A DNA stretch of 62,246 nucleotides, from assembly GCA_017645275.1 (NCBI GenBank), contig JAGCPH010000048.1, positions 1-62,246 of the forward strand, written 5' to 3'. The translations under genes and the position numbers were made by a program. The first letter of the stretch is position 1; each line of letters begins with the position of its first letter. The notes below the pieces were generated by a model. That model was not told the DNA's origin. It did no database searches and saw nothing but the letters and a program-made list of their open reading frames with translations. Positions 1 through 11,651 of the stretch are shown piece by piece. This DNA is from Bacteroidales bacterium. GTDB lineage: Bacteria > Bacteroidota > Bacteroidia > Bacteroidales > F082.

Positions 1-600
1 CTTTCCGCTAGGCGTTGGGTGTTATGATATAGAAAGGCGAGGTTGTGCAGGATCATGGCCATACCAGGCTCATAGGCTCGCGGGTTGACTTGCACAAGAC
101 GTCTGTATATTTCCAAGGCTTCAAGATACATGGCCTCACTTTCCGCTAGGCGTTGTGTGTCCTTATATAAACTGGCGAGATTGTTCAGCGTCATGGCCAG
201 TTCGGGCTCATAGGCTTGCAGGTTGACTTGCGCCAAGCGTCTGTATATTTCCAAGGCTTCATTATACATAGCCTCAGTTTCCGCTAGGCGTTGGGTGTCT
301 TTGTATAGATTGGCTAGGTTGTTCAACGTCATTGCCACATCGGACTCATAGGCTTGCGGATTACCTTGCGCCAGGCTTCTGTATATTTCCAAGGCTTCAT
401 TATACATAGCCTCACTTTCCGCTAGGCGTTGGGTGTTATGATATAGAAAGGCGAGGTTGTGCAGGATCATGGCCATACCAGGCTCATAGGCTCGCGGGTT
501 GACTTGCACAAGACGTCTGTATATTTCCAAGGCTTCATTATACATAGCCTCACTTTCCGCTAGGCATTGGGTGTCCTTGTATAGATTGGCGAGGTTGTTC
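1..600 (-). repeat. Tandem 138-bp (46-residue) TPR-coding repeats
   Basis: Units start at 1, 139, 277, 415 and 553, each 138 bp, and encode 46-residue TPR units. Positions 1-123 are identical to 415-537, three units apart, while the intervening units differ at several sites. That pattern points to recent segmental duplication or gene conversion, and the array continues past the window edge. Confidence 0.9.
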
Positions 601-1589
601 AGTAATGCTGCTCTATTATTTTGACACTCTATGCTATTCATGTCTGTTTCATTGTCAATTAGATGCAGGGCACGATTATAATAATTTATAGCTTCTTGAT
701 GGTTGTTCTGGCTTTGGCAAAAAAGCGCATATTCATACAAAACATCAAAAGTGTTCACCTTGTCAGCAATGCGTTTGAGGTATTTGCCAGCTTCTTCCCA
801 CTCACCGCTGTTCTTTAAGAGGGCGACACTACTCTTCATCTGTTCCACGAGTGTATACAGTTTGCTGTCGCTTTGTTGCAGTTCTTGCTGCACGGCCTCG
901 TTGTGAGCCGTTTCCTTGTCAAACTCTTCCGCCAGCTTCAACGACTTTAACCTTTCAATGGCTTCTTCCGTCTCTCCGCACTGATACATTTCCAGTATCT
1001 CCTGCATCTTATCGTCCAGCTCACTCATGTCAATACGGGCCAAGTCATCGGCGTATTTGTCTATCTCTTTTTGCAGTTTCTCCAGCCTCTCATATGCAAC
1101 ATTTAATGCATTCTCCAAATCATCCTGTTTTATCTTGCCTTCCTCAAGCTGTTTTTCCAGCTCTTCTTTTTGTTGGTCATATTTTCGCTTAGCGTCTTTG
1201 CGCCCGAGTTCGATATATTCTTGTTTCTGCCTATCAAACTCGTCGGCATCGCAGAGAACAAGGCAAAGTGGCTCCTTGCGGATGCTCCATTCGTCCACGG
1301 CATGTTGGTTGAAGACCATCATCTCACGTTTGGTCACTGCCACCAAACCGATACGATCACCCATCTTCCGATTGCTGAATGTAAGTTCGAAAGATCCCGT
1401 GCTGTCGCTTATAGCAGGCTGCCTTTCTGGGTCATATTTGATAACCACATTGGGCAATGGTGTACGAGGATTTTTGCCGTTGTATCTGTAACTTACACCT
1501 TTTTGAATTTGCACTTGGGCGAAGCTTATGGTTGTAATGAACAAACTAATAAAAAGAAGAACATGTTTTGTTAGTTTGTTTATTATCAT
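1..1589 (-). CDS. Secreted TPR-repeat protein, 3' end beyond window
   Basis: Open on the minus strand from an ATG at 1589 to the left edge, so the C-terminus is missing. The first 25 residues form a signal peptide ending in SFAQ. A small beta domain (about 30-110) resembles the carboxypeptidase-regulatory-like folds common in Bacteroidota surface proteins. Residues 115-180 are charged and helical, probably coiled coil. From about residue 290 there are TPRs, the later ones strictly 46 residues long and of kinesin-light-chain type (LNNLANLYKDTQRLAESEAM). An in-frame ATG at 1613 would add eight polar residues ahead of the signal peptide, so 1589 is preferred. TPRs bind other proteins; no enzyme domain is visible in the part present. 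The position at the edge of a TIR gene cluster suggests, but does not show, a shared role. Confidence 0.85.
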   Translation of the reverse strand, partial: MIINKLTKHVLLFISLFITTISFAQVQIQKGVSYRYNGKNPRTPLPNVVIKYDPERQPAISDSTGSFELTFSNRKMGDRIGLVAVTKREMMVFNQHAVDEWSIRKEPLCLVLCDADEFDRQKQEYIELGRKDAKRKYDQQKEELEKQLEEGKIKQDDLENALNVAYERLEKLQKEIDKYADDLARIDMSELDDKMQEILEMYQCGETEEAIERLKSLKLAEEFDKETAHNEAVQQELQQSDSKLYTLVEQMKSSVALLKNSGEWEEAGKYLKRIADKVNTFDVLYEYALFCQSQNNHQEAINYYNRALHLIDNETDMNSIECQNNRAALLNNLANLYKDTQCLAESEAMYNEALEIYRRLVQVNPRAYEPGMAMILHNLAFLYHNTQRLAESEAMYNEALEIYRSLAQGNPQAYESDVAMTLNNLANLYKDTQRLAETEAMYNEALEIYRRLAQVNLQAYEPELAMTLNNLASLYKDTQRLAESEAMYLEALEIYRRLVQVNPRAYEPGMAMILHNLAFLYHNTQRLAE

Positions 1590-1736
1590 TTTGCAATAGT
1601 AATCTTGCTTCATATTTCAATGATATATTGTGTTTGTTATTGTTTGTTTATCATATTTTCTTCACGCACCTGTAACATCAAATTATTTTTCCAAAACTTT
1701 TGTCTGTTTTTCACTTCTTACCCCCAAGCCCACACC

Positions 1737-2027
1737 TTACTTCTTTTCTATCTTCCACCCCAACTTCAGTATCAGTTTTAGTGTCTCAATAGCTGTATTG
1801 CGGTCATATTCTTTCTCGCTTTCTGGAAGCTCGTCGTAATCAACTAGACAAGGGTGTTTCTTCAAGTTGTCGTTACGCTCTAGGCCGTAGGTCCAGCCGT
1901 CGTTAAACCGGCCTAACGCCCATATGTCGTGCACGTTGCGAGCCATCTGCTCGGTTAGTTGTTTCAGTTCACTCGACAATTCGATATCGGAGGTGTTGAT
2001 AGGTGTTGGGATGTATGTTATGTTCAT
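1737..2027 (-). CDS. RyR (ryanodine receptor repeat) domain protein
   Basis: A 96-residue protein that is essentially one RyR domain (Pfam RyR family). It opens with YIPTPINTSDIEL, has NVHDIWALGRFNDGWTYG in the middle, then KHPCLVDYDELPESEKEYDR and a helix TAIETLKLILKLGWKI. In animals this domain repeats in the cytoplasmic part of ryanodine-receptor calcium channels; stand-alone prokaryotic versions have no settled function and are thought to bind a small ligand. The ATG at 2027 is chosen because the longer reading starts at TTG inside the -7 promoter element. It has its own promoter and lies between the TPR gene and the DUF4062-TPR gene, with three TIR genes beyond. A sensor for a nucleotide-derived signal made by the TIR proteins is an inference. 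Confidence 0.88.
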   Translation of the reverse strand: MNITYIPTPINTSDIELSSELKQLTEQMARNVHDIWALGRFNDGWTYGLERNDNLKKHPCLVDYDELPESEKEYDRNTAIETLKLILKLGWKIEKK

Positions 2028-2048
2028 CGTTTGTGAATTTTGAGGGTA

Positions 2049-2080
2049 CAAATGTATGAATTTTATTTTGAATTGCCAAA
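2049..2080 (-). promoter_or_regulatory. Bacteroidetes-type promoter of the RyR gene
   Basis: On the minus strand TTTG (2080-2077) is followed after 20 bp by TACATTTG (2056-2049), matching TTTG-N20-TAnnTTTG. The ATG at 2027 lies 22 nt downstream, which supports that start. Confidence 0.7.
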
Positions 2081-2184: not shown

Positions 2185-4680
2185 TTACATTTTTATTCCC
2201 AACACATCATTTATTTCATTATATAAACCATCTTCATTATTAACTAACTCATCAGAAATCTTTTCCCAATCATAAAAAGAAAACTTTTCATTAGTGCCGA
2301 GTGTTTCGTCCCCCATGAGCTCCACTCTAGCAATATCATTTTGTATAGATTCTAATTTGTTATGATGATTTACACTGCTTTCATTTCTACGTGTTTCAAT
2401 TTCCAAAACCTTATTATAAAATGCCAATGCCTCCCTATAAAAACATTTAAATTCGAACACTCTCCCAATATTATATATTAATGACACTGTTGAACAATGC
2501 CCAACTCCCAAATTCTTTGTCATTATCGTTAAGGCTTTAAAAAAATGAATCAAAGACTTGTCATAGTCGTGTTTTGCAAGATAGTATCCTAATGCTATAT
2601 GCACATCTGCTGTTGTTTGGTGTTCTTTACCCAACTGAAGTTCACATCGCCCTACCGACTCCGCTAGTAATCCCCATGCTTTGTCAAAATTATTGTATTC
2701 GTTATAATCAAAATCTAATATAGCCATGTTAGAATATATAGTGCTAAGATAATCGATATTAGCATTATCTTTCTCCCATATTTTCAATGCTTTTTCATAA
2801 TTGGCTATTGCTTTTTCATAATCCCCCTTTTCACCTCTCTTGTGGTACAGATGTCCTATATTATTAAAATATTTAGCAGTATCAGGATGTTCGTCACCCA
2901 GTTGTTCTCTTCTGATATCATACGACAACTTATATAACCTCAACGCCCTGTTATATCTTTTCATATTAACGTATAATAAGCCACTCCTTTCATATGAATC
3001 AGCCATAGATAACGTCTTTTCACCATGTATTCTTCTTAACAATTGTCTTTGTTTTGAAAACAGACCTAATGCCTTAATATTATCTTGTTCACACGCTCCG
3101 TAAAGGTACAGGAACATTGCATATTCGCCTAATAATTTGGAATAAGATCTATTATCTAATGAAACTCTTCCTGCCATTTCATCAACTTGCGAATATATTT
3201 GTTTAACTCTTGAGATTCGTCCTTCTATAGGTTGTTTTGAATCAGCCATTATTGTACTAATCGTCAATAACAATTCCTCAATAGCACTAAAAATGTCTTG
3301 CCGCATCAATTCGGTGATTTCTCTGCTCTCAATAAAGTTCCCCAAAAGACGCTTTGCATCTTCCAATGCTTCATCAAGAATAATATTAGCCCTTTCAACA
3401 TCTCCGACTTCAAAGGCTTTGATAGCCCTTTTCATGCGAGCAGTAAAACGTTTTCCTTGTAATTGTGCAACACGCATGGCAACATCAAACAAAAACTGCT
3501 GGTGTTGGTCAAATTCTTTTTGCAGACTATTATATTCATCTAATAATTTTTGGAGTCTTTGCTCTCTACGAGGGTCATTATGATATGTTTTAACATCTAT
3601 ACGAGCATCCTCAATCTCTTCTGGAAGTTCTAGCAATCTTTTATTCATACGTTGATAGTCCTTGTTGAGTTTTGCAAATGGAATATTACCAACATTAACA
3701 ATTGGCACATTTCCCACGAACAAACTACCTCCATTATGATTAATCAATCTATTATCCAGAACATTTTGCATCATCATTAGTTGAAGTACAAAATTCAAGT
3801 TCATCGTATCAACATTTTCATATCGGCAGAAAAAATGACCATATTCAGTTTCGAAACTTGCTTTAAACTCTGATAAAGCTTTGTCTGCGACATCTTTATC
3901 TGTCTCCTTAAAGAAAATATATAAGTGTTTGGGATTATTCCCTGCTTTTAAACTAGTATAAGCATAATCCACATTATCTTTCGCACATTCTGGAAGTTTA
4001 TGCCAATAGACATTTAAGCACATGTCGCAATCGCTTATTTGCTTTTTGAATTCGGCCATTCTGTCCGAACATTTCACACGTCGCAATCGGATTCCTGTTT
4101 TGATCAATGCTTCGTTCAAATGAGCCATTATATCCGTAAACTCTAACTTATCCTCTTCTAACTCATTCAATCCGGCAACCATTACATTTATATCACGGAT
4201 CGGTTGAACCGCATCACTTCTTCCTTCAACATTTGACAAAAACTTCACCACTTCTTCTTTCAATTGGGTATCATCGTCAAACGACACAGGCGTACAGCCA
4301 TACTCTTGCTTGATATTGCACAGAAAACCTTTTAGATTCTCGTCGGCATCAGCACCATCATTTTTCACTAAAACCAGAACCTTTTTAAGGTTATTACCAG
4401 CTTTTTGTTCATTTATTGCATCCTTAAATTCCTCGACAGTATATTTTCCAAGAGTCTTACTAAACATCGTAATACAGACATCACAATCGCGAAGTCGCCG
4501 CAAATATTGGTCTTCTTTTCGTTCCACACGCAAGGCAGTATCGACATATTCCCATTTAACTGGTTGATAATACACCTTTTCAGTACTCAAATCGGTCAAT
4601 AGGTCAACAAGTACAAGGCGTTCGTGATGCATCTCTGAAGAAGATGCGATGAAGATCTTTTTTGTTAGTTGTGTATTCAT
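2185..4680 (-). CDS. Tandem DUF4062-like / helical / TPR protein
   Basis: An 831-residue soluble protein. Residues 7-155 resemble DUF4062, a Rossmann-like domain related to TIR-type signalling folds (KIFIASSSEMHHERLVLVDLL, then a CDVCITMFSKTLGKYTVEEF core). Residues 160-310 look like a second, diverged copy (INVMVAGLNELEEDKLEF, CDMCLNVYWHKLPECAKDNV). Residues 340-470 are helical and charged. Residues 515-780 contain kinesin-light-chain-like TPRs such as HPDTAKYFNNIGHLYHKRG. No signal peptide or membrane helix is seen. The gene starts 47 nt after the TIR-WD40 gene on the same strand and probably belongs to its operon. The role could be as cytoplasmic partner or regulator of the membrane TIR proteins; that is inference. 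The second DUF4062 assignment is weaker than the first. Confidence 0.75.
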   Translation of the reverse strand: MNTQLTKKIFIASSSEMHHERLVLVDLLTDLSTEKVYYQPVKWEYVDTALRVERKEDQYLRRLRDCDVCITMFSKTLGKYTVEEFKDAINEQKAGNNLKKVLVLVKNDGADADENLKGFLCNIKQEYGCTPVSFDDDTQLKEEVVKFLSNVEGRSDAVQPIRDINVMVAGLNELEEDKLEFTDIMAHLNEALIKTGIRLRRVKCSDRMAEFKKQISDCDMCLNVYWHKLPECAKDNVDYAYTSLKAGNNPKHLYIFFKETDKDVADKALSEFKASFETEYGHFFCRYENVDTMNLNFVLQLMMMQNVLDNRLINHNGGSLFVGNVPIVNVGNIPFAKLNKDYQRMNKRLLELPEEIEDARIDVKTYHNDPRREQRLQKLLDEYNSLQKEFDQHQQFLFDVAMRVAQLQGKRFTARMKRAIKAFEVGDVERANIILDEALEDAKRLLGNFIESREITELMRQDIFSAIEELLLTISTIMADSKQPIEGRISRVKQIYSQVDEMAGRVSLDNRSYSKLLGEYAMFLYLYGACEQDNIKALGLFSKQRQLLRRIHGEKTLSMADSYERSGLLYVNMKRYNRALRLYKLSYDIRREQLGDEHPDTAKYFNNIGHLYHKRGEKGDYEKAIANYEKALKIWEKDNANIDYLSTIYSNMAILDFDYNEYNNFDKAWGLLAESVGRCELQLGKEHQTTADVHIALGYYLAKHDYDKSLIHFFKALTIMTKNLGVGHCSTVSLIYNIGRVFEFKCFYREALAFYNKVLEIETRRNESSVNHHNKLESIQNDIARVELMGDETLGTNEKFSFYDWEKISDELVNNEDGLYNEINDVLGIKM

Positions 4681-4727
4681 AGGTCAAAAGGGGGTATTAC
4701 ATTCTTAACTGTGTTACAAGCATATTA

Positions 4728-7367
4728 TTATTCAAGATAATACTTCCTGCGTTCTTCTGGCGTCAGTGGACGATCTTTGAAGCGCTCGCGGGTTTGGTCT
4801 AGGAGTTCTTGAAGAGGTGGAAAGTCCCAAATTCTGATTGCACCATCGTCAGATACAGAAACAATGTTTCTATCATTTGGACTGAATGATACAGATATGA
4901 CACCCAATGTATGTCCATATAATGTTAATATATGGTTGCCGGTGAGAACATCCCATATTCTTATAGTATTGTCGCTGGAAGCGGATGCGATATATTTCCC
5001 ATCATGACTGAATGACACATAGTTCACATAATCGGCATGTCCTTCCAAGATATGGAGCGGTAGTTCCAAATAAGTATCCCAAATTATGATTTTTTTGTCC
5101 CATGACGCCGATGCGATAAGTTTGCCATCCGGGCTGAATACTGCATGTTTTACAATGGATTTGTGACCTTTCATAACATGAATGGGTTGACCTGTTTTGG
5201 CATCCCATGTTCTGACGGTATTGTCATCGGAAGCTGTCACAATAAGTTTACCATCTGGACTGAATACGGAAGACCTTACTATATATGGAGGTACATCTAA
5301 TGTATGAATTAATTGACCGGTTATCGCATTCCAAATTTTAACATCTGTTGAGGCCGAAACCATACTTTTCCCGTCAAGGCTGAATGACACCATTTCAATT
5401 TGAGATTCTTGTTGTGGTGATATATGCTCAATTTCATCAGTTTCAGTGTTGTAAATCCCAATTCTTTTATCAAATGTTGAATAAGCGATTAGTTTCCCAT
5501 CAGGAGAAAATGCCACAGGACAACGTGAATTGATCTTGAATTCACGGAGTATCTCGCCAGTCATGATATCCAACACACAAATTTTGTCTCCTGCTTCATA
5601 TACAATGTGACGATTGTTGCGATAGTATGTGGTCGAACTGACAAATAGTGCATTTAATGTGTACAAAAGGCTATGAGGTTCGACATTCCATAGTCTGGCA
5701 GAATTGTCATAGGAACCTGATATAATACGTTTTCCATCGGAGCTGTATGTTGCGAATCTTATTGCGGCTGTATGTCCTTTTAAAACTTTAACAGGCAAAC
5801 CAGTCTCTACATCCCAAACACGCACTGTTTTGTCGTTGGATGTTGAGACAACTTGTTTGTTGTCAGGGCTAAAAACGACAGTATTAACACTGTCATCATG
5901 GCCATTAATCGTTTTTAGATGATGCCCCGTAACAGCATCCCATATTATAATGGATTTGTCCATTGAGGAAGAGACAATCTTTGTGCCATCATAACTATAT
6001 GCAACATCTTGGACACTTCCTGTATGCCCTATTAAAGTATAGAGACAACATTCCTTTTCAACATCCCAAATACGTACTGTCCTATCATCTGAGGCGGATG
6101 CAATATATTTGCCATCATGGCTGTAAGCTATGGAATTGACCGTGTTTGTGTGACCTTTAAAGACATGCGTCGGCTGTTCTGTTGCAATGTTCCATATCAC
6201 AACCGTGCTATCTAAAGAAGCGGCCGATGCTATATACGTCTCGTCAGGGCTGAATATGGCTTCATTAATACCTTCACCATGACAACCCAATGTATGCAAT
6301 AGTTCTCCTGACGAAGTGTCCCAAATACCCATCGATCCACCTGAATAACTTATCAACAATTGACTGCAGTCAGAATTGAAAACCGCCGAATATGCTCCCA
6401 AAGTAAAGAACCCTGTCACAATACGTATTATTTGCCCTGATGATGTGTTCCAAATTCTCAATGTGTCATCTATTGAAATTGTAATAATTTGTGCACTGTC
6501 AGGAACAAATGAAGCTGTGATAATTCCTGCAACAGGAAGTATTGCAGTGTTTTCGTCCCACGCTTTTCTTAAAGCCGCCTCAGCTTCGCTGACACATGGA
6601 CGATCTGAGGGATTGTAAACATTGTCAGGCAATACTTTCATTAATAATCTTTGGGCTGTATACGTATCTCCTTTAACAATAAGATCTTGCGCTTTCTCTG
6701 ACACAAACCTTGACTGGTTTTCCATCATCTTCCAGTCTTTTTCCTTAATTTCTCTATATTGCCACCATATCCAGCCAGCTACGCCAGCCATTAAAAGGAA
6801 ACCGATTACGCTTGCAGCGACAATCCAATTTCTCCGTCTCTTTTGTTCCCTCTCCCATCTCTGCCACAGCTCGTCAAACTTCAGCCCAAACATTTGAGCC
6901 ACCACCTTCACTGCTGCAGCATCACGGCCCATCTCGTTGATGTTCACACCTAAAAGCTCTTGATCTGCAGGCATTTCCCTCAACGTTACAGGGAAACACT
7001 CTTCTTCGGGATTTTGCGCATGAGCAGTACCTCCGATGATAAACGGAATAATCTTATCGCTCCGCCCCATATCGATGAAAGCTTTCACCTCCTTGCTAAC
7101 CCATTCCGAATGAGCGGCATGTGGCGAACAAATCACTATCAGATACTGCGAGTTTTCAAGTGCATCATTAATTTCTTCGGCCAAAACGCCACCCGCCAAA
7201 TCGGATTTATCTCTGAATATAGGACGAATCTCTTTCGGCAAGTCGCTCCTCCCGTTCAGATTCGACGGCAGCTTGTAATGCTCCAGCTTGTGCTGAAGCC
7301 ACTTGGCCCATTCCTCATCCTCGCGTTTGTAACTAATGAAAGCGAAATAGCGTTTTCCTTTATCCAT
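4728..7367 (-). CDS. TIR-TM-WD40 membrane receptor-like protein
   Basis: An 879-residue protein in three parts. The TIR domain (about 5-165) begins RYFAFISYKREDEEW and has SEWVSKEVKAF, where E93 aligns with the glutamate that is catalytic in NAD-cleaving TIRs such as SARM1. One membrane helix follows (about 181-202), preceded by KRRR, so by the positive-inside rule the TIR faces the cytoplasm. From about 270 to 860 there are 14 WD40 repeats (for example VRIWDV, IIIWDA), enough for two seven-bladed propellers, which would then lie in the periplasm. It starts 22 nt after the upstream TIR gene and precedes the DUF4062-TPR gene, so the three form an operon. The domain calls are clear. NADase activity and outward-facing propellers are inferred. 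A cytoplasmic propeller is possible if the hydrophobic stretch is not membrane spanning. Confidence 0.9.
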   Translation of the reverse strand: MDKGKRYFAFISYKREDEEWAKWLQHKLEHYKLPSNLNGRSDLPKEIRPIFRDKSDLAGGVLAEEINDALENSQYLIVICSPHAAHSEWVSKEVKAFIDMGRSDKIIPFIIGGTAHAQNPEEECFPVTLREMPADQELLGVNINEMGRDAAAVKVVAQMFGLKFDELWQRWEREQKRRRNWIVAASVIGFLLMAGVAGWIWWQYREIKEKDWKMMENQSRFVSEKAQDLIVKGDTYTAQRLLMKVLPDNVYNPSDRPCVSEAEAALRKAWDENTAILPVAGIITASFVPDSAQIITISIDDTLRIWNTSSGQIIRIVTGFFTLGAYSAVFNSDCSQLLISYSGGSMGIWDTSSGELLHTLGCHGEGINEAIFSPDETYIASAASLDSTVVIWNIATEQPTHVFKGHTNTVNSIAYSHDGKYIASASDDRTVRIWDVEKECCLYTLIGHTGSVQDVAYSYDGTKIVSSSMDKSIIIWDAVTGHHLKTINGHDDSVNTVVFSPDNKQVVSTSNDKTVRVWDVETGLPVKVLKGHTAAIRFATYSSDGKRIISGSYDNSARLWNVEPHSLLYTLNALFVSSTTYYRNNRHIVYEAGDKICVLDIMTGEILREFKINSRCPVAFSPDGKLIAYSTFDKRIGIYNTETDEIEHISPQQESQIEMVSFSLDGKSMVSASTDVKIWNAITGQLIHTLDVPPYIVRSSVFSPDGKLIVTASDDNTVRTWDAKTGQPIHVMKGHKSIVKHAVFSPDGKLIASASWDKKIIIWDTYLELPLHILEGHADYVNYVSFSHDGKYIASASSDNTIRIWDVLTGNHILTLYGHTLGVISVSFSPNDRNIVSVSDDGAIRIWDFPPLQELLDQTRERFKDRPLTPEERRKYYLE

Positions 7368-7388
7368 ATTACATGAAGTTTTGACTTA

Positions 7389-8627
7389 CTATTTTTCAAC
7401 ATCATAAACCAACCGCACTCCGCGGCCGTCGGCTCTGCCGTAAGCATGATACGATGGCGTGAGACTGCAGTCTTCGATAAACACGTAATATGCCTTTGCG
7501 TTGTCGAAAGGTGTTTGCGACCAATAGTATCCGATTTCGCCTTCGTTGTCGACTCTGGTTCCATCGCGATAGCCAGTTGCCGGCATAAAGGCAGCTCCAT
7601 TAGCCTCAAATATTGTGGTCCAATCAGACTGCGAGATGCTGTTTGCGTTAAAATCAGCCTTGTCGTCGTTGGCTTTGTTTAGTTTATAGTCATTGCAATT
7701 CCAGTTATCCGGTAACAGAATCACTCCGTTCACACCGTTGACAATGGCTTTAGCATATTTGATATTTGTCTTGCGACCGTTAAACACATACTCCCACTCG
7801 CTGTTGGTAAGAGTGCGCCAGCGTTTGTCGCTCCCATTGATAATGATGTTGTTGCCCCATTCTTTAAACGGTTGGTATTTGGTGCTTTGTTTAGCTGTGT
7901 CGGTTGGGTTTTCACCAGTACCCCACCCCAACAAGTCTATCCAACCATCATAATCGGGCGATATTTTGGTATTGCCTTTTCCTATTATATCCCATTGATT
8001 TTCAGCAAACCGCCATGTGTCGGTAGAAGCCTGATACTGAAGATTGCCTTTCGAAAAAACAACCTTATTGGTTGGAGAGACTGAAAAAGCAGCGCCCATC
8101 TCTATTATCGTCTTAGGCTTGTAAAAGGCTGCAAACAAGACCGAAGCAACAATTATTACTCCCAAGACCATCCACAAAAACTTGAGTTTTGATTTCTTTT
8201 CTATCTCTTCACCTTTATCAGTTATCTCCTCCCGATTCAGTCTTTTTCTTAAATCCCTAACCAGTTTCTTGCATTGCTCATCCGACTTGGCATCAATAAA
8301 ATCGATATGTTGGAAATGAAACATAAACCAGTCGCGCAGACCCTTGCCGTCGATCACCACCGGAATTATTTTCTTTTTCTTCTGCTCGGCATAATAAACT
8401 TCGCGTTTGGTCCAATCCGACTTCAACGAATTGTCTGACAACACAAACAGCACTATCTGAGCGGAATCAATTGCCTGAATGATCTTGTTTTCAAACTGCT
8501 CGCCACTCTCAATGCCATCCAAATCAATCCAACATTGAGTGCCGACTTCTTTATTGATTTTATCAATAAAAGGCAAGACTATAGCTTTATCTTCCCTGGA
8601 ATAGCTTATAAAAATGTCGTTTTGCAT
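7389..8627 (-). CDS. TIR-TM protein with C-type-lectin-like C-terminal domain
   Basis: A 412-residue protein. The TIR domain (1-130) starts MQNDIFISYSREDK and has SDWTKREVYYA, in which E76 matches the catalytic glutamate of enzymatic TIRs. A membrane helix at about 150-168 follows a lysine-rich stretch, giving a TIR-inside topology. Residues 180-412 form a domain with FSKGNLQYQASTDTWRFAEN, GWIDLLGWGT and a final GRGVRLVYD, the pattern of the Fibrobacter major paralogous (FISUMP, TIGR02145-like) family, likely a C-type-lectin/formylglycine-enzyme fold. The same domain closes the secreted protein at 45877-47739. First gene of a minus-strand operon with the TIR-WD40 and DUF4062-TPR genes and divergent from a third TIR gene. 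Domain calls are firm; ligand and activity are unknown. Confidence 0.88.
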   Translation of the reverse strand: MQNDIFISYSREDKAIVLPFIDKINKEVGTQCWIDLDGIESGEQFENKIIQAIDSAQIVLFVLSDNSLKSDWTKREVYYAEQKKKKIIPVVIDGKGLRDWFMFHFQHIDFIDAKSDEQCKKLVRDLRKRLNREEITDKGEEIEKKSKLKFLWMVLGVIIVASVLFAAFYKPKTIIEMGAAFSVSPTNKVVFSKGNLQYQASTDTWRFAENQWDIIGKGNTKISPDYDGWIDLLGWGTGENPTDTAKQSTKYQPFKEWGNNIIINGSDKRWRTLTNSEWEYVFNGRKTNIKYAKAIVNGVNGVILLPDNWNCNDYKLNKANDDKADFNANSISQSDWTTIFEANGAAFMPATGYRDGTRVDNEGEIGYYWSQTPFDNAKAYYVFIEDCSLTPSYHAYGRADGRGVRLVYDVEK

Positions 8628-8641
8628 AATGAAAGTTTTGG

Positions 8642-8672
8642 CAAAATTAAAAATAGTATTTCACTTTTCCAA
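8642..8672 (-). promoter_or_regulatory. Promoter of the minus-strand TIR operon
   Basis: On the minus strand TTG (8672-8670) is followed after 20 bp by TAATTTTG (8649-8642), fitting the Bacteroidetes consensus. The TIR start codon at 8627 lies 14 nt downstream. Confidence 0.65.
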
Positions 8673-8781
8673 GAAAAATCTTAATAAATGGCTATTGAGA
8701 TTCCTCACCCATTCTTTGCTACAGCTAGTAATCTAAATGATTGCAGTATAATTGGGGATTTTTCTTTACAAAAAAGCAAGA

Positions 8782-8807
8782 TTGTTTTATAATATTTATT
8801 AACTTTG
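8782..8807 (+). promoter_or_regulatory. Likely promoter of the plus-strand TIR gene
   Basis: TAACTTTG at 8800-8807 fits the -7 element and lies 28 nt before the ATG at 8836. The nearest TTG (8782-8784) is only 15 bp upstream, so the -33 part is poor. Together with 8642-8672 this makes 8628-8835 a divergent control region for the TIR genes. Confidence 0.5.
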
Positions 8808-8835
8808 CGAGCACAAACAATTACTTTTTCTTTAT

Positions 8836-9840
8836 ATGAAGTACGATCTGTTTATTAGTTATTCACGTTCTGATTACATAGATGCACATGAAAATGTCAT
8901 CCCAGGATCTGCTGTTGAACGAATCCTTGAAGTCTTAGATGCTAATAATATAACATATTGGATTGACATACATGGCGATTATTCTCATGATAATAATTTT
9001 GTCAAAAAAATTGTCTCCAAGATAAACGCATCTAACGCCGTCTTGTTTTTGTCTTCCAAAGCATCCAACAATTCTGAATGGGTTCAAAAAGAGATTTCTC
9101 ATGCCAACAACACAAAGAAAATCATTATTCCTTTTTTAATAGATGATTACTCTATCGAAGAAACCATCAAATTTCAGTTAGGCCAAACAGATATGATTTA
9201 TTACTATAAAAATCAAAAAGCATCATTGCGCAAACTGGTTGGTATAGTGGATCACACAAAAGATCAAATAACAGAGGCCAAAAAGCCAAATCTAAATGTA
9301 AACAGAGTACTGTTTATAACAGGAGTTACCATAGCTATTATGATTGTTGCTTTTCTGTTTTGTTTTTCCTTGGGATTTGTTGTCGGTTATTTTGGCAACA
9401 GAGTGAATTCTGAAGATTTTGCAAATCATGCATACAAAAATAATCAGGTAACTATTGTCGATAACCACACAATATCATTTACTGGTGATTGCTTTATTAT
9501 CAAATATGATTTGAAATACAATACTACATATCCAATCATGATTAAGGAGCATGGTTTATTTCAAAACGCCACTTTAAAGGATATTATGTTGACTGTATCG
9601 TTTTCCACTTTCATGCAAAGAATTGTAAAAAACGCAAAAAGTGCCGGCAATGGCAAAACAAAGATTTTATATGTAGTAGGCGGATGTGTTGGCTTCTTTT
9701 GTGGTTATAGTGTCGGTAATTATGTCGGAACAGAATATGCTATACTTAAAAACGAAAATGATATGAAAGATTACTTTAATAACCCAACTATTCATGACAA
9801 GTTACAACAAATGATTGACGATTATTATCAGACAAAATGA
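8836..9840 (+). CDS. TIR-TM protein with two membrane helices
   Basis: A 334-residue protein. The TIR domain (1-140) starts MKYDLFISYSRSDY and contains SEWVQKEISHA, with E86 in the position of the catalytic glutamate. Membrane helix 1 is at about 158-187. A loop of about 90 residues follows that I do not recognise, then a glycine-rich second helix (about 277-298, VVGGCVGFFCGYSVGNYVG) and a hydrophilic tail. If the TIR is cytoplasmic, the loop is periplasmic and the tail is back inside. The stop overlaps the start of the next gene (ATGA), so the two are translationally coupled and probably act together. Base composition is markedly AT-rich compared with rlmD downstream. Confidence 0.87.
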   Translation: MKYDLFISYSRSDYIDAHENVIPGSAVERILEVLDANNITYWIDIHGDYSHDNNFVKKIVSKINASNAVLFLSSKASNNSEWVQKEISHANNTKKIIIPFLIDDYSIEETIKFQLGQTDMIYYYKNQKASLRKLVGIVDHTKDQITEAKKPNLNVNRVLFITGVTIAIMIVAFLFCFSLGFVVGYFGNRVNSEDFANHAYKNNQVTIVDNHTISFTGDCFIIKYDLKYNTTYPIMIKEHGLFQNATLKDIMLTVSFSTFMQRIVKNAKSAGNGKTKILYVVGGCVGFFCGYSVGNYVGTEYAILKNENDMKDYFNNPTIHDKLQQMIDDYYQTK

Positions 9841-11651
9841 CAGCTTTAATATTTATATTAATCCAATCTGTAATACAACATGTTATTGTGCCCGACACCA
9901 CAGTTTTTTTAAGTGATGGCAGATTCAAAGGACAATTGGTTGTTGTAAACGAAGACACCCTTTACAAAGGGACGATTCGAGATAATAAATTTAATACAGG
10001 AAGAGGTTATTGGGATTTAAACTGGGACAAACTCCATCTGTATATTATAAATGGCGCTGGCGACATTATTTATCGCAACAATAGCTATGATAATGATATC
10101 GCTTCAAAATCTTGTTGGTTTTGGGAACTACTGGAAATAAACAGATCGTCACTAAAAAAATGTTCATGGACAGAATGGCTTGTCGGCGATGAGGATGATA
10201 GGTGGATCAGATATAAAACTTATAAGCCAAAAACCCGCGAATGGCAAATAATTTCATTTATTGAAAACACTGATTATGCAAACGGTATAAAATATTCTGA
10301 CGATTTTCTTCATGACTGGGATTGGACTTCTGATGACAACATAATGTGGAATCTTGCACTATCAATTATCTTAATTTGGGGATTATACATGCTATTAACT
10401 CCAATCAGTGGTAATCATCGTTATCTTATTCCCAACAAAGTTTCAATTATTATTGGCATCGTTTTGTTTGTGGGTTATTGTTTTTTGGATAGATTTACTC
10501 GCAAACAGATGATAACACCAATAATTATAGCATCTGTTTTTTATATTTTATACCTTTTTATCAATAATGATAGAATTAAGCAAATAACATTATTATTGAG
10601 TTTCGTCTTTCTGATAGGAGGAGAATCATATCAGTTCTTTATCCTGAAAGACACCGCATATTTGCATGATGGAAAGAAAGTACAACTCAATTGGCGCAGA
10701 GGAACAGATGTGATCAAACGAATGAGAATCAAAAGAATTATTAATAATATGATACCAATACATATTCCCGATAGTGATGGTAATTTGAAATATACCGTTT
10801 ATATTAATAAATATGAGTTTACTAATGGCGATAAAGGTATAGTTTCAGATGCTTTATTTGGATGTATTAATAGTAAAAGACCATTATATAACATATCATA
10901 TAGAGAAGCGCAACTTCTTACAGAAAACATGTGTAAATTGACAGGTTTAAAATTTGATTTACCAACCCTAGATGAATTTAATTGTGCTAAAAAAGATGAG
11001 TATTCGTATGAGTATTATGCTGACGAAAAAAAAGTTAATAATGGTAAACCAAATGCTTACGGTTTATATCATATGACATCTAATGTTCCAGAATATACAT
11101 CGTCGTACTCTAATATGAAAACAAAAATTGGCTTGGCTGGCGATACACTTATAAAATCATATGATTATGTATTTGTTGATGGTGGTGTATATATCTGTGG
11201 AACAAATGACATATTCTATTCACTTGCAGATAATCACATACAAATATATAGTGTTGTTAACAAAAATTATAATATTGATAATTGTGGCTTTAGGCTCGTT
11301 TATAGACCAGATAATATTGGTTCGCGCGAATTTGTAATTAAAGGCGTTTTGCGTAATGACAAACACTGTGCCAACTATCCTAAACATATACAACTTCTAA
11401 GTATTGATAGTCATGAAATTAATTCCATGCCTAATTATGAATCATTTCAAGAAAAATTAATAGAGAGACGGTTCCACAATAGTAAACTAACTGCTATTGA
11501 TCTGACAACTAACGAACTGATCCAACTAGATATAGAACCAGGATATGAACCTTATGATTTTTATCCGGAGTTCTCTTTTAACGGAACAGATATCAACCAG
11601 ATATTGTTAGTACCTAAAAAAGAAGTTGATACATTTCTTACTGATATTTGA
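9837..11651 (+). CDS. Polytopic membrane protein with FGE/SUMF1-like domain
   Basis: A 604-residue protein whose start overlaps the TIR stop by 4 nt. It opens with a hydrophobic, signal-like segment (1-18) and a 150-residue soluble part, then four membrane helices at about 171-190, 202-218, 226-243 and 250-270. Residues 320-490 resemble a degenerate formylglycine-generating-enzyme (SUMF1/FGE-sulfatase) domain: LTGLKFDLPTLDEF corresponds to the usual RLPTEAEWE region, NAYGLYHMTSNVPEYT to YGLYDMxGNVWEW, and CGFRLVYR to the closing GFRL. The oxidase-type cysteines are not evident, so a binding role is more likely than an enzyme. With a cleaved signal and four helices the FGE part would be periplasmic. 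It probably forms a sensor pair with the TIR protein upstream; that is inference. Confidence 0.72.
   Translation: MTALIFILIQSVIQHVIVPDTTVFLSDGRFKGQLVVVNEDTLYKGTIRDNKFNTGRGYWDLNWDKLHLYIINGAGDIIYRNNSYDNDIASKSCWFWELLEINRSSLKKCSWTEWLVGDEDDRWIRYKTYKPKTREWQIISFIENTDYANGIKYSDDFLHDWDWTSDDNIMWNLALSIILIWGLYMLLTPISGNHRYLIPNKVSIIIGIVLFVGYCFLDRFTRKQMITPIIIASVFYILYLFINNDRIKQITLLLSFVFLIGGESYQFFILKDTAYLHDGKKVQLNWRRGTDVIKRMRIKRIINNMIPIHIPDSDGNLKYTVYINKYEFTNGDKGIVSDALFGCINSKRPLYNISYREAQLLTENMCKLTGLKFDLPTLDEFNCAKKDEYSYEYYADEKKVNNGKPNAYGLYHMTSNVPEYTSSYSNMKTKIGLAGDTLIKSYDYVFVDGGVYICGTNDIFYSLADNHIQIYSVVNKNYNIDNCGFRLVYRPDNIGSREFVIKGVLRNDKHCANYPKHIQLLSIDSHEINSMPNYESFQEKLIERRFHNSKLTAIDLTTNELIQLDIEPGYEPYDFYPEFSFNGTDINQILLVPKKEVDTFLTDI

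Follow-up and report, generated by a model that had tools for sequence, protein, structure and literature searches.

Known bacterial TIR immunity relies mostly on cytoplasmic sensing. The stretch of DNA analysed here, 62,246 nucleotides from contig JAGCPH010000048.1 of a Bacteroidales bacterium (hereafter, the window), raises the question of whether bacterial TIR proteins may also act as receptors that look outwards and, if so, which proteins would handle their signal. A sequence-only reading had suggested that a cluster of TIR genes in the window could be an uncharacterised outside-in signalling or defence system, and the outside-in part of that suggestion is still the best reading. TIR receptors with outer sensors would form an outside-in branch, with a layout closer to that of Toll signalling.

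Gene content and organization of the locus

The source genome belongs to a gut bacterium and is represented by a 2.0-Mb assembly that is 82% complete. The contig end, at base 1, truncates the first gene, g0 (3..1613, minus strand), which encodes a secreted protein with a signal peptide, an N-terminal segment apparently beta-rich on visual inspection, and TPRs; a signal peptide was called in all 13 ORFs matched by a local g0 profile in 41 stretches. In coordinate order it is followed, on the same strand, by a gene with a TTG start encoding a 104-residue RyR-domain protein (1737..2051), and by gene 1 (2185..4680), which combines DUF4062, a domain that we take to have a TIR-like fold, with TPR_12 repeats and has no transmembrane (TM) helix. 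The 133 bp lying between these two genes make their co-transcription uncertain. Gene 2 (4728..7367, minus) encodes a TIR domain, a TM helix and WD40 repeats; gene 3 (7389..8627, minus), a TIR domain, a TM helix and an exported-type ectodomain of unproven fold; and gene 4 (8836..9840, plus), a TIR domain, a TM helix, a loop of about 100 residues and a marginal second helix. Gene 5 (9837..11651, plus) overlaps gene 4 by 4 bp, and its product presents five hydrophobic segments and a weak match to FGE-sulfatase. The ORFs of genes 2, 3 and 4 are intact, with TIR_2 above its cut-off and one strong TM helix in each, which bears out the description of three adjacent TIR-TM genes. The divergent intergenic region between genes 3 and 4 (8628..8835) carries one TAnnTTTG motif per strand, at 8800-8807 (plus) and 8642-8649 (minus), while 0.15 would be expected per 208 bp on both strands from the window's own density; we take this motif to be the Bacteroidota -7-like element. 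The locus forms an AT-rich island (G+C 36.9% versus 45.6%).

The TIR domains and their glutamate

Pfam TIR_2 was found above its cut-off in genes 2, 3 and 4, and nowhere else in the 2.0-Mb, 82%-complete genome at E values up to 0.001. The glutamate needed for NAD cleavage, which had been said to be kept in each protein, is indeed present as E93, E76 and E86, respectively, always within a W-x-x-x-E context, and it occupies 72 of 72, 72 of 73 and 73 of 75 rows in the three TIR profile alignments. The alignment with a NADase TIR that had been suggested as a check placed the glutamate of gene 3 on the corresponding one of SARM1, presumably the catalytic E642. The TIR domains of genes 2-4 are thus predicted, from these residues, to cleave NAD+. 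Genes 3 and 4 also scored 22.8 and 29.2 bits with the Pfam ThsB_TIR model (cut-off 21.2); the PADLOC matches to ThsB models were weak and partial, and those of NCBIfam were partial and far below the NCBIfam cut-offs. No ThsA-type effector (SIR2/SLOG or another known Thoeris effector) was detected in genes 1-5 and the RyR-domain gene by Pfam, or in genes 1-5 by PADLOC.

Membrane topology and probable outer modules

The single strong TM helix spans residues 182-200 in gene 2 (bases 6768-6824), 150-168 in gene 3 (bases 8124-8180) and 158-176 in gene 4 (bases 9307-9363). A basic stretch before the helix had been pointed out in two of the proteins; counting K and R in the 15 residues before and the 15 after the helix revealed an excess before it in all three (6/4, 5/2 and 3/1 for genes 2, 3 and 4), and the same bias was found in 30 of 32 single-TM TIR proteins from 41 stretches, a sample chosen for its TIR and associated genes. 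A second line of evidence came from the ectodomain of gene 3, a Bacteroidales module amplified across the genus, whose relatives carry export signals in 22 of the 23 readable cases (six more are truncated by the locus edge), compared with 1 of 74 ORFs with a TIR domain and 89 of 315 ORFs of other kinds; among the copies in the own genome, the figure is 9 of 11. The positive-inside bias and these export signals support the proposed orientation, so that an inner TIR and an outer sensor are the most likely arrangement for the three proteins. The support is thinner for the WD40 repeats of gene 2, for which an outer location is suggested by the charge rule together with export signals on a small number of relatives (two of six WD40 ORFs without TIR); for the loop of gene 4, it is the charge count that supports it.

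As to the nature of the outer modules, the WD40 array of gene 2 was recovered by Pfam. The C-type-lectin-like fold attributed to the gene 3 ectodomain found no confirmation in Pfam or PDB searches: the window copy matched no Pfam family, only one of 19 relatives weakly matched Lcl_C (E 0.006), and the best PDB match of the family had an E value of 0.91. The two-helix loop ascribed to gene 4 held in part, with a clear first helix (mean hydropathy 2.78) and a loop of about 100 residues, the second helix being marginal (1.41). The notion that membrane TIRs are unusual had to be abandoned, since 36 of the 62 ORFs with TIR at the N-terminus possess a TM helix, in the 41 stretches selected for TIR and associated genes.

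The RyR-domain protein

The product of the small gene next to gene 1 matched PF02026 with an E value of 1.6e-36 (124.9 bits; cut-off 27.4) and, in a PDB search, 3nrt (E 2.5e-35) and RyR3 (9l90, E 2e-42). According to PMC13232231, the phage protein RyDEP binds cADPR isomers through four residues and cleaves 2'/3'cADPR, binding of the latter extends to six of eight homologues from phages, and RyR proteins may work as a hydrolase or as a sponge; these binding and cleavage data refer to phage proteins. The window protein presents the same H/W/H/D set (H41, W44, H66 and D83) at the RyDEP spacing, identical to the phage protein, and the set recurs in 46 of the 55 RyR domains aligned. The window RyR protein is probably a receiver or regulator of the signal. 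Relatives up to 69% identical occur in contigs classed as viral. The cassette beside one of them was considered as a candidate NARP1 and rejected: the gene three places beyond RyR resembles adenylosuccinate synthetase, and the two that precede that gene match no Pfam family. On a Priestia plasmid, a nucleotide-cyclase gene is followed by RyR, a Pycsar effector lies in the same stretch and a TIR gene is also near, a context indicating that the ligand of RyR need not be ADPR.

Linkage of RyR, TIR and RCK-like genes in relatives

For at least 38 of 59 RyR places, a TIR gene is found within 10 kb, whereas the control gene HsdM has one in 3 of 82 cases; among the TIR matches listed, none comes that near to the remaining 21 RyR places, and 19 of these are on contigs without a listed TIR. 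A further partner emerged as an RCK-like family whose members, in relatives, end in a C-terminal RyR-like tail. Among its 54 loci, a TIR gene is found within 10 kb in 34, a RyR place within 5 kb in 20 (on the same protein in 3 of these) and either of them in 43. In other families of the order, 35 RyR loci include TIR in 18, RCK-like genes in 18 (counted with a profile from which the RyR tail had been removed) and either in 28; in 11 of these loci outside the family, an RCK-like ORF accompanies a RyR match on another ORF. One of them, locus L241, is a compact RCK-RyR-TIR/TM-secreted-TPR operon, with two secreted TPR genes, in which genes overlap by 4 bases.

The RCK label of this family is based on weak hits and is to be taken as provisional. 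In a PDB search, the first matches of the family profile were a structure of RyR (E 5.4e-5) and, at E about 0.01, CASTOR/DMI1 (0.0098 for CASTOR); a TrkA-domain channel (0.73) and MthK (2.0) were not significant and were interspersed with unrelated proteins. Of 10 members, 5 matched Slo-like_RCK, at E 8.1e-6 in the best case; a TM helix is missing from 8 of the 19 members found in the fetched loci, and no TVGYG-type filter was seen by eye. No RCK-like gene with a RyR-like tail was found in the own genome; with the contig broken inside g0 and the assembly 82% complete, this organism may still possess one. The RCK-like query had no match in plasmids. The comparison between the N-terminal domain of the secreted TPR protein and a 376-residue TIR-TM ectodomain yielded a profile probability of just 49% and was set aside.

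The sequence-only reading had overlooked the features of gene 1 (DUF4062 and TPR, no TM helix) and gene 5, inside its range, and the RyR-domain and secreted TPR genes, both outside it; the functional context made up of the RyR domain, the secreted TPR protein and the RCK-like protein was absent from it.

Occurrence of the gene set

Contrary to the expected co-occurrence of the trio in related genomes, the exact set was not seen in another of the 173 family genomes. Gene 4 matched there almost only through its TIR domain, with one weak match to residues 205-284, and gene 5 gave short weak matches and no full-length relative. TIR-TM genes in mixed sets of other composition are found repeatedly (for instance, at loci L149 and L153), and TIR-TM genes of the gene 2 type, in two length classes, are patchily present in 43 of the 173 genomes. 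Viral scans with genes 3 and 4 retrieved no relative, and gene 4 had no match in plasmids; in phages, gene 3 had one match, 31% identical over residues 1-165. No TIR-TM, RyR and RCK operon was found in the literature searched, though an earlier description in Burroughs 2015, Burroughs 2020 or Yirmiya 2025 is possible; among the papers retrieved, one (PMC13232231) joins RyR domains with TIR signalling.

A model and its alternatives

These observations could be integrated in a model, to which we give an even chance, in which the locus is an outside-in TIR signalling system with an ADPR signal and RyR handling. The outer modules (WD40, the exported Bacteroidales domain and the loop) would detect an event at the envelope, most plausibly phage attack, with assistance from the secreted TPR protein and, it may be, from gene 5. 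Sensing would cluster the cytoplasmic TIR domains, which would then cleave NAD+ to yield a signal of the ADP-ribose type, for example 2'- or 3'cADPR. In related loci, the RyR domain of the RCK-like membrane protein would receive this signal, while in the window the small stand-alone RyR protein would bind or terminate it, and the outcome might be ion flux, arrest or death.

The same proteins could instead be suicide NADases triggered from outside, killing by NAD+ depletion without any messenger, with RyR as an accessory limiting accidental activation. The conserved glutamate is what NAD+ hydrolysis would require, this 82%-complete genome yielded no RCK-like gene, and RyR proteins can act as a hydrolase or sponge (PMC13232231); nevertheless, the repeated presence, next to TIR-TM genes, of RCK-like proteins that bear a RyR-like tail suggests a received signal, and we regard this explanation as unlikely, if worth keeping in mind. 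It is also conceivable, albeit rather improbable, that the wiring is as proposed and the trigger is envelope stress, cell contact or gut cues instead of phage: the ectodomain module of gene 3 is amplified across the genus, with mostly exported relatives, and the TPR partners are secreted, but the AT-rich island, the patchy presence and the RyR relatives in viral-classed contigs are typical of defence, without proving it. Finally, defence islands collect unrelated systems and the exact gene set was seen only in this genome of the 173, as expected if the neighbours were unrelated, brought together by chance or generic island clustering, and each TIR-TM protein acted alone. The HsdM control (3/82 against at least 38/59 for RyR), the replication of the linkage in other families and the 4-base overlaps in L241 make this very improbable; as the sole cause, island clustering is ruled out by the control and the replication.

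Returning to the signalling model, the TIR-RyR linkage would supply the host-side partner of a domain with which phages degrade or sequester cADPR signals (PMC13232231), and it predicts which bacterial proteins read such signals. Whether the R12 domain found in ryanodine receptors arose to read nucleotides produced by TIR proteins becomes a testable question. A more tentative extension, which we consider somewhat doubtful, is that the system is a bacterial counterpart of the receptor-to-calcium-store circuit, in which a cADPR isomer made by outward TIR receptors would open an RCK channel via its R12 domain, as a direct relative of the cADPR-RyR connection under discussion in animals.

Comparison with known systems

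As in Thoeris, the TIR domains are expected to make a cADPR-type signal, and ThsB_TIR is above its cut-off in genes 3 and 4; unlike in Thoeris, they are membrane-anchored with probable outer sensor domains, and a RyR protein in the window and RCK-like partners in relatives are found instead of a known ThsA-type effector domain. The window RyR protein shares its Pfam family and the four identically spaced ligand residues with phage RyDEP (PMC13232231), but its gene lies in a bacterial genome, near TIR genes. In relatives, the RCK-like partner resembles the CASTOR and DMI1 channels (E about 0.01 for both in the PDB profile search), from which it differs in its C-terminal RyR-like tail, in the weakness of the similarity, in its members without TM helix and in its absence from the genome sequence at hand. 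TIR and CLec/FGE domains have been combined as putative sensors in DGR-diversified conflict systems (PMC10907252); unlike these, gene 3 has no NTPase domain in Pfam. With animal Toll-like receptors, the three proteins share the probable architecture of a single-pass protein with an inner TIR and an outer sensor; instead of an LRR ectodomain and a C-terminal TIR, however, they have WD40 repeats, an unassigned module or a loop after an N-terminal TIR, in reversed order, and this bacterial TIR keeps the catalytic-type glutamate.

Organization of the TIR-TM locus

The left 11.6 kb of the window, a contig of a 2.0 Mb genome that is 82% complete, contains seven ORFs. On the minus strand lie gene 3 (8627-7389), gene 2 (7367-4728), gene 1 (4680-2185), a gene encoding a ryanodine-receptor (RyR) domain (2051-1737) and g0, a secreted TPR gene that starts at 1613 and runs off the contig, separated by 21, 47, 133 and 123 bp, respectively; gene 4 (8836-9840) and gene 5 (9837-11651), which overlap by 4 bp, are on the plus strand. 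The 208-bp divergent region carries one TAnnTTTG motif per strand, which we take to be of the Bacteroidota type. The G+C content is 36.9% in the block from 1740 versus 45.6% rightward; the gene at ~11.7 kb, right of the block, is presumably a core-type, 23S rRNA methyltransferase-like one.

The sequence-only reading described genes 2, 3 and 4 as TIR-transmembrane (TIR-TM) proteins, and this holds: each matches TIR_2 above the cut-off (the sole three such matches found in the genome) and has one strong helix. The Glu of the W-x-x-x-E motif is kept in all three (E93, E76 and E86), and in 72/72, 72/73 and 73/75 rows of three profile alignments of fetched loci. The WD40 repeats of gene 2 were likewise confirmed. 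Of the two-helix loop proposed for gene 4, the first helix is strong and the second marginal, and the C-type-lectin label given to the gene 3 ectodomain is unproven, because it matched no Pfam family and its relatives as a family reached no PDB match better than E 0.91. Relatives of the gene 2 type occur in seven named records: MAGs of Bacteroidales (four, some ruminant), Prevotella and Hellea, and the strain Heminiphilus faecis AM35.

Membrane topology

Topology was evaluated in 41 stretches (the window and 40 from relatives), picked for TIR and related genes and including some ORFs truncated at stretch ends. They contain 74 distinct TIR ORFs, 62 with an N-terminal TIR, and in 36 of these 62 a TM segment starts at residues 110-260. 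Lys and Arg are more abundant before than after the TM segment in 30 of 32 single-TM N-terminal-TIR ORFs (equal in one, fewer in another). Moreover, a simple custom-made test for signal peptides or lipoproteins called export in 22 of the 23 judgeable relatives of the gene 3 ectodomain (29 relatives, one per genome, six not judgeable), compared with 89/315 other ORFs and 1/74 TIR ORFs. In the genome that holds the window, seven stretches contain 11 copies of this module; nine received an export call, and the remaining two are lipoprotein-like by eye. The charge bias and the exported relatives thus argue that, as first proposed, the TIR most probably lies on the cytoplasmic side and the gene 3 module outside. 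An outer location of WD40 has thinner support, from the charge rule and from export signals in 2/6 WD40 ORFs lacking TIR.

The gene 3 ectodomain is an abundant module: gene 3 finds matches in 104 of 173 family genomes, mostly, among those listed, through this module (window 7389-8114). It is amplified across the genus, and the open frames that carry it range from less than 300 to several thousand residues. As for other forms, two TIR-TM proteins have 637 aa (L153:10810-12723 and L163:6858-8771), and the PDZ-like C-terminal stretch seen by eye in that of L153 suggests a further ectodomain type. A recurrent TIR-TM protein of 376-379 aa stands beside at least one secreted TPR protein in L131, L142, L143, L148 and L241, and looks like a conserved receptor with its periplasmic partner.

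Association of TIR with RyR and RCK-like genes

PF02026 was listed at 59 places, some of them domains of larger proteins, in 39 of the 173 family genomes. At least 33 lie within 5 kb, and at least 38 within 10 kb, of a listed TIR place; at least 25 of the 39 genomes have a pair within 10 kb, and seven have no TIR among the matches listed. For the control HsdM (PF02384; best 150 places, 82 in genomes with a listed TIR), the proportion within 10 kb was 3/82 (Fisher p 8e-16, a rough guide only because the genomes are related).

Putative channel-type proteins (RCK-like) with an E-H-x-R-W tail were found near RyR genes. Among 19 members in the 41 stretches, 11 have hydrophobic segments and eight none, and 17 have the tail motif. 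A search with one member found matches in 41/173 family genomes. Of 54 such loci, 34 have TIR within 10 kb and 20 an RyR place within 5 kb (on the same protein in three); 43 have either and 11 neither. The profile of ten TM-bearing members gave an RyR chimera structure as top PDB match (E 5.4e-5), followed by CASTOR (E 0.0098), DMI1 (E 0.012) and RyR proteins; a TrkA-domain channel (E 0.73) and MthK (E 2.0) appeared amid unrelated proteins and are not significant. Pfam Slo-like_RCK matched 5/10 members (best E 8.1e-6). Because these matches are weak, the channel label is tentative. In L152 (G076:C35), four tandem TIR-TM-WD40 genes alternate with uncharacterised genes, adjoined by an RCK-like membrane protein.

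The association was replicated outside the family. RyR was present in 37 of 393 genomes drawn from the order; 35 of these belong to other families, and each contributed one fetched stretch. TIR occurs in 18 of the 35 stretches, RCK-like in 18 when the profile excludes the RyR tail (20/35 with earlier profiles) and either in 28. Eleven loci have RCK-like and RyR matches on separate ORFs, and local profiles missed RyR itself in three. L241 is a compact operon of RCK-like (740 aa), RyR (99 aa), TIR-TM (379 aa) and two secreted g0-family TPR proteins, with a four-base overlap between the RyR stop and the TIR-TM start; the window thus holds g0, RyR and TIR-TM of this set. In L240, RyR directly follows TIR-TM, which is itself preceded by a tail-motif protein with four TM segments; L259 comprises TIR-TM, a TM protein matching earlier RCK-like profiles only, and RyR. 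A similar neighbourhood is found in a named strain outside Bacteroidota, on a Priestia aryabhattai plasmid (NZ_CP128553.1, 54612-70893), with RyR 16 bp after an adenylate/guanylate cyclase gene; a TIR gene and a gene for a Pycsar effector lie no more than ~5 kb away.

Ligand residues and proposed signalling

The window RyR gene scores 124.9 bits to PF02026, and its product matches PDB entries 9l90 (RyR3) and 3nrt ('putative ryanodine receptor'), presumably a Bacteroides protein. Its H41, W44, H66 and D83 have spacing identical to H75, W78, H100 and D117, the ligand residues of RyDEP, a phage RyR protein that, according to a 2026 preprint, cleaves 2'/3'cADPR, which 6/8 phage homologues tested bound (PMC13232231). 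In an alignment of RyR domains at E <=1e-10, 46 of the 55 sequences keep all four residues (viral 10/11, family 15/17, order 21/27).

From the gene content, orientation and residues observed, we infer a chain in which the outer sensor would activate TIR, whose ADPR signal would act on RyR to produce ion flux. Three points count against it: no RCK-like gene was found in the own genome (82% complete, the contig ending inside g0); the Priestia RyR directly follows a nucleotide-cyclase gene and has a TIR gene and a Pycsar effector nearby, so the ligand of RyR may be another adenine nucleotide; and a lone RyR could be a brake. Judged by the effectors sought in the genes that were scanned, the locus is not Thoeris, nor are its proteins Toll-like receptors; the proposed chain would operate as TIR-messenger immunity does, except that the sensor sits outside. 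The literature searched, whose coverage was incomplete, gave no description of operons combining TIR-TM, RyR and RCK. We class the locus as a novel form of TIR signalling, the channel reading being the bold case.

RyR relatives of 51-69% identity were found in 11 viral-classed contigs. Their presence there is consistent with an arms race over the signal, but some of these contigs could be misassigned. In viral contigs L196, L197, L198, L199 and L204 (~5.9-9.0 kb), RyR is followed by two uncharacterised genes of ~205 and ~290 aa and then by one of ~400 aa, adenylosuccinate-synthetase-like in the two tested (L196 and L204); this cassette may link RyR either to purine metabolism or to modified DNA. 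RyR domains also lie inside longer proteins of ~280-356 aa (L147:14429-15499, L147:12364-13200 and L148:10815-11885), the first with weak C39-peptidase-like and zinc-ribbon matches and the last adjoining a protein that weakly matches a helix-turn-helix family (UPF0122).
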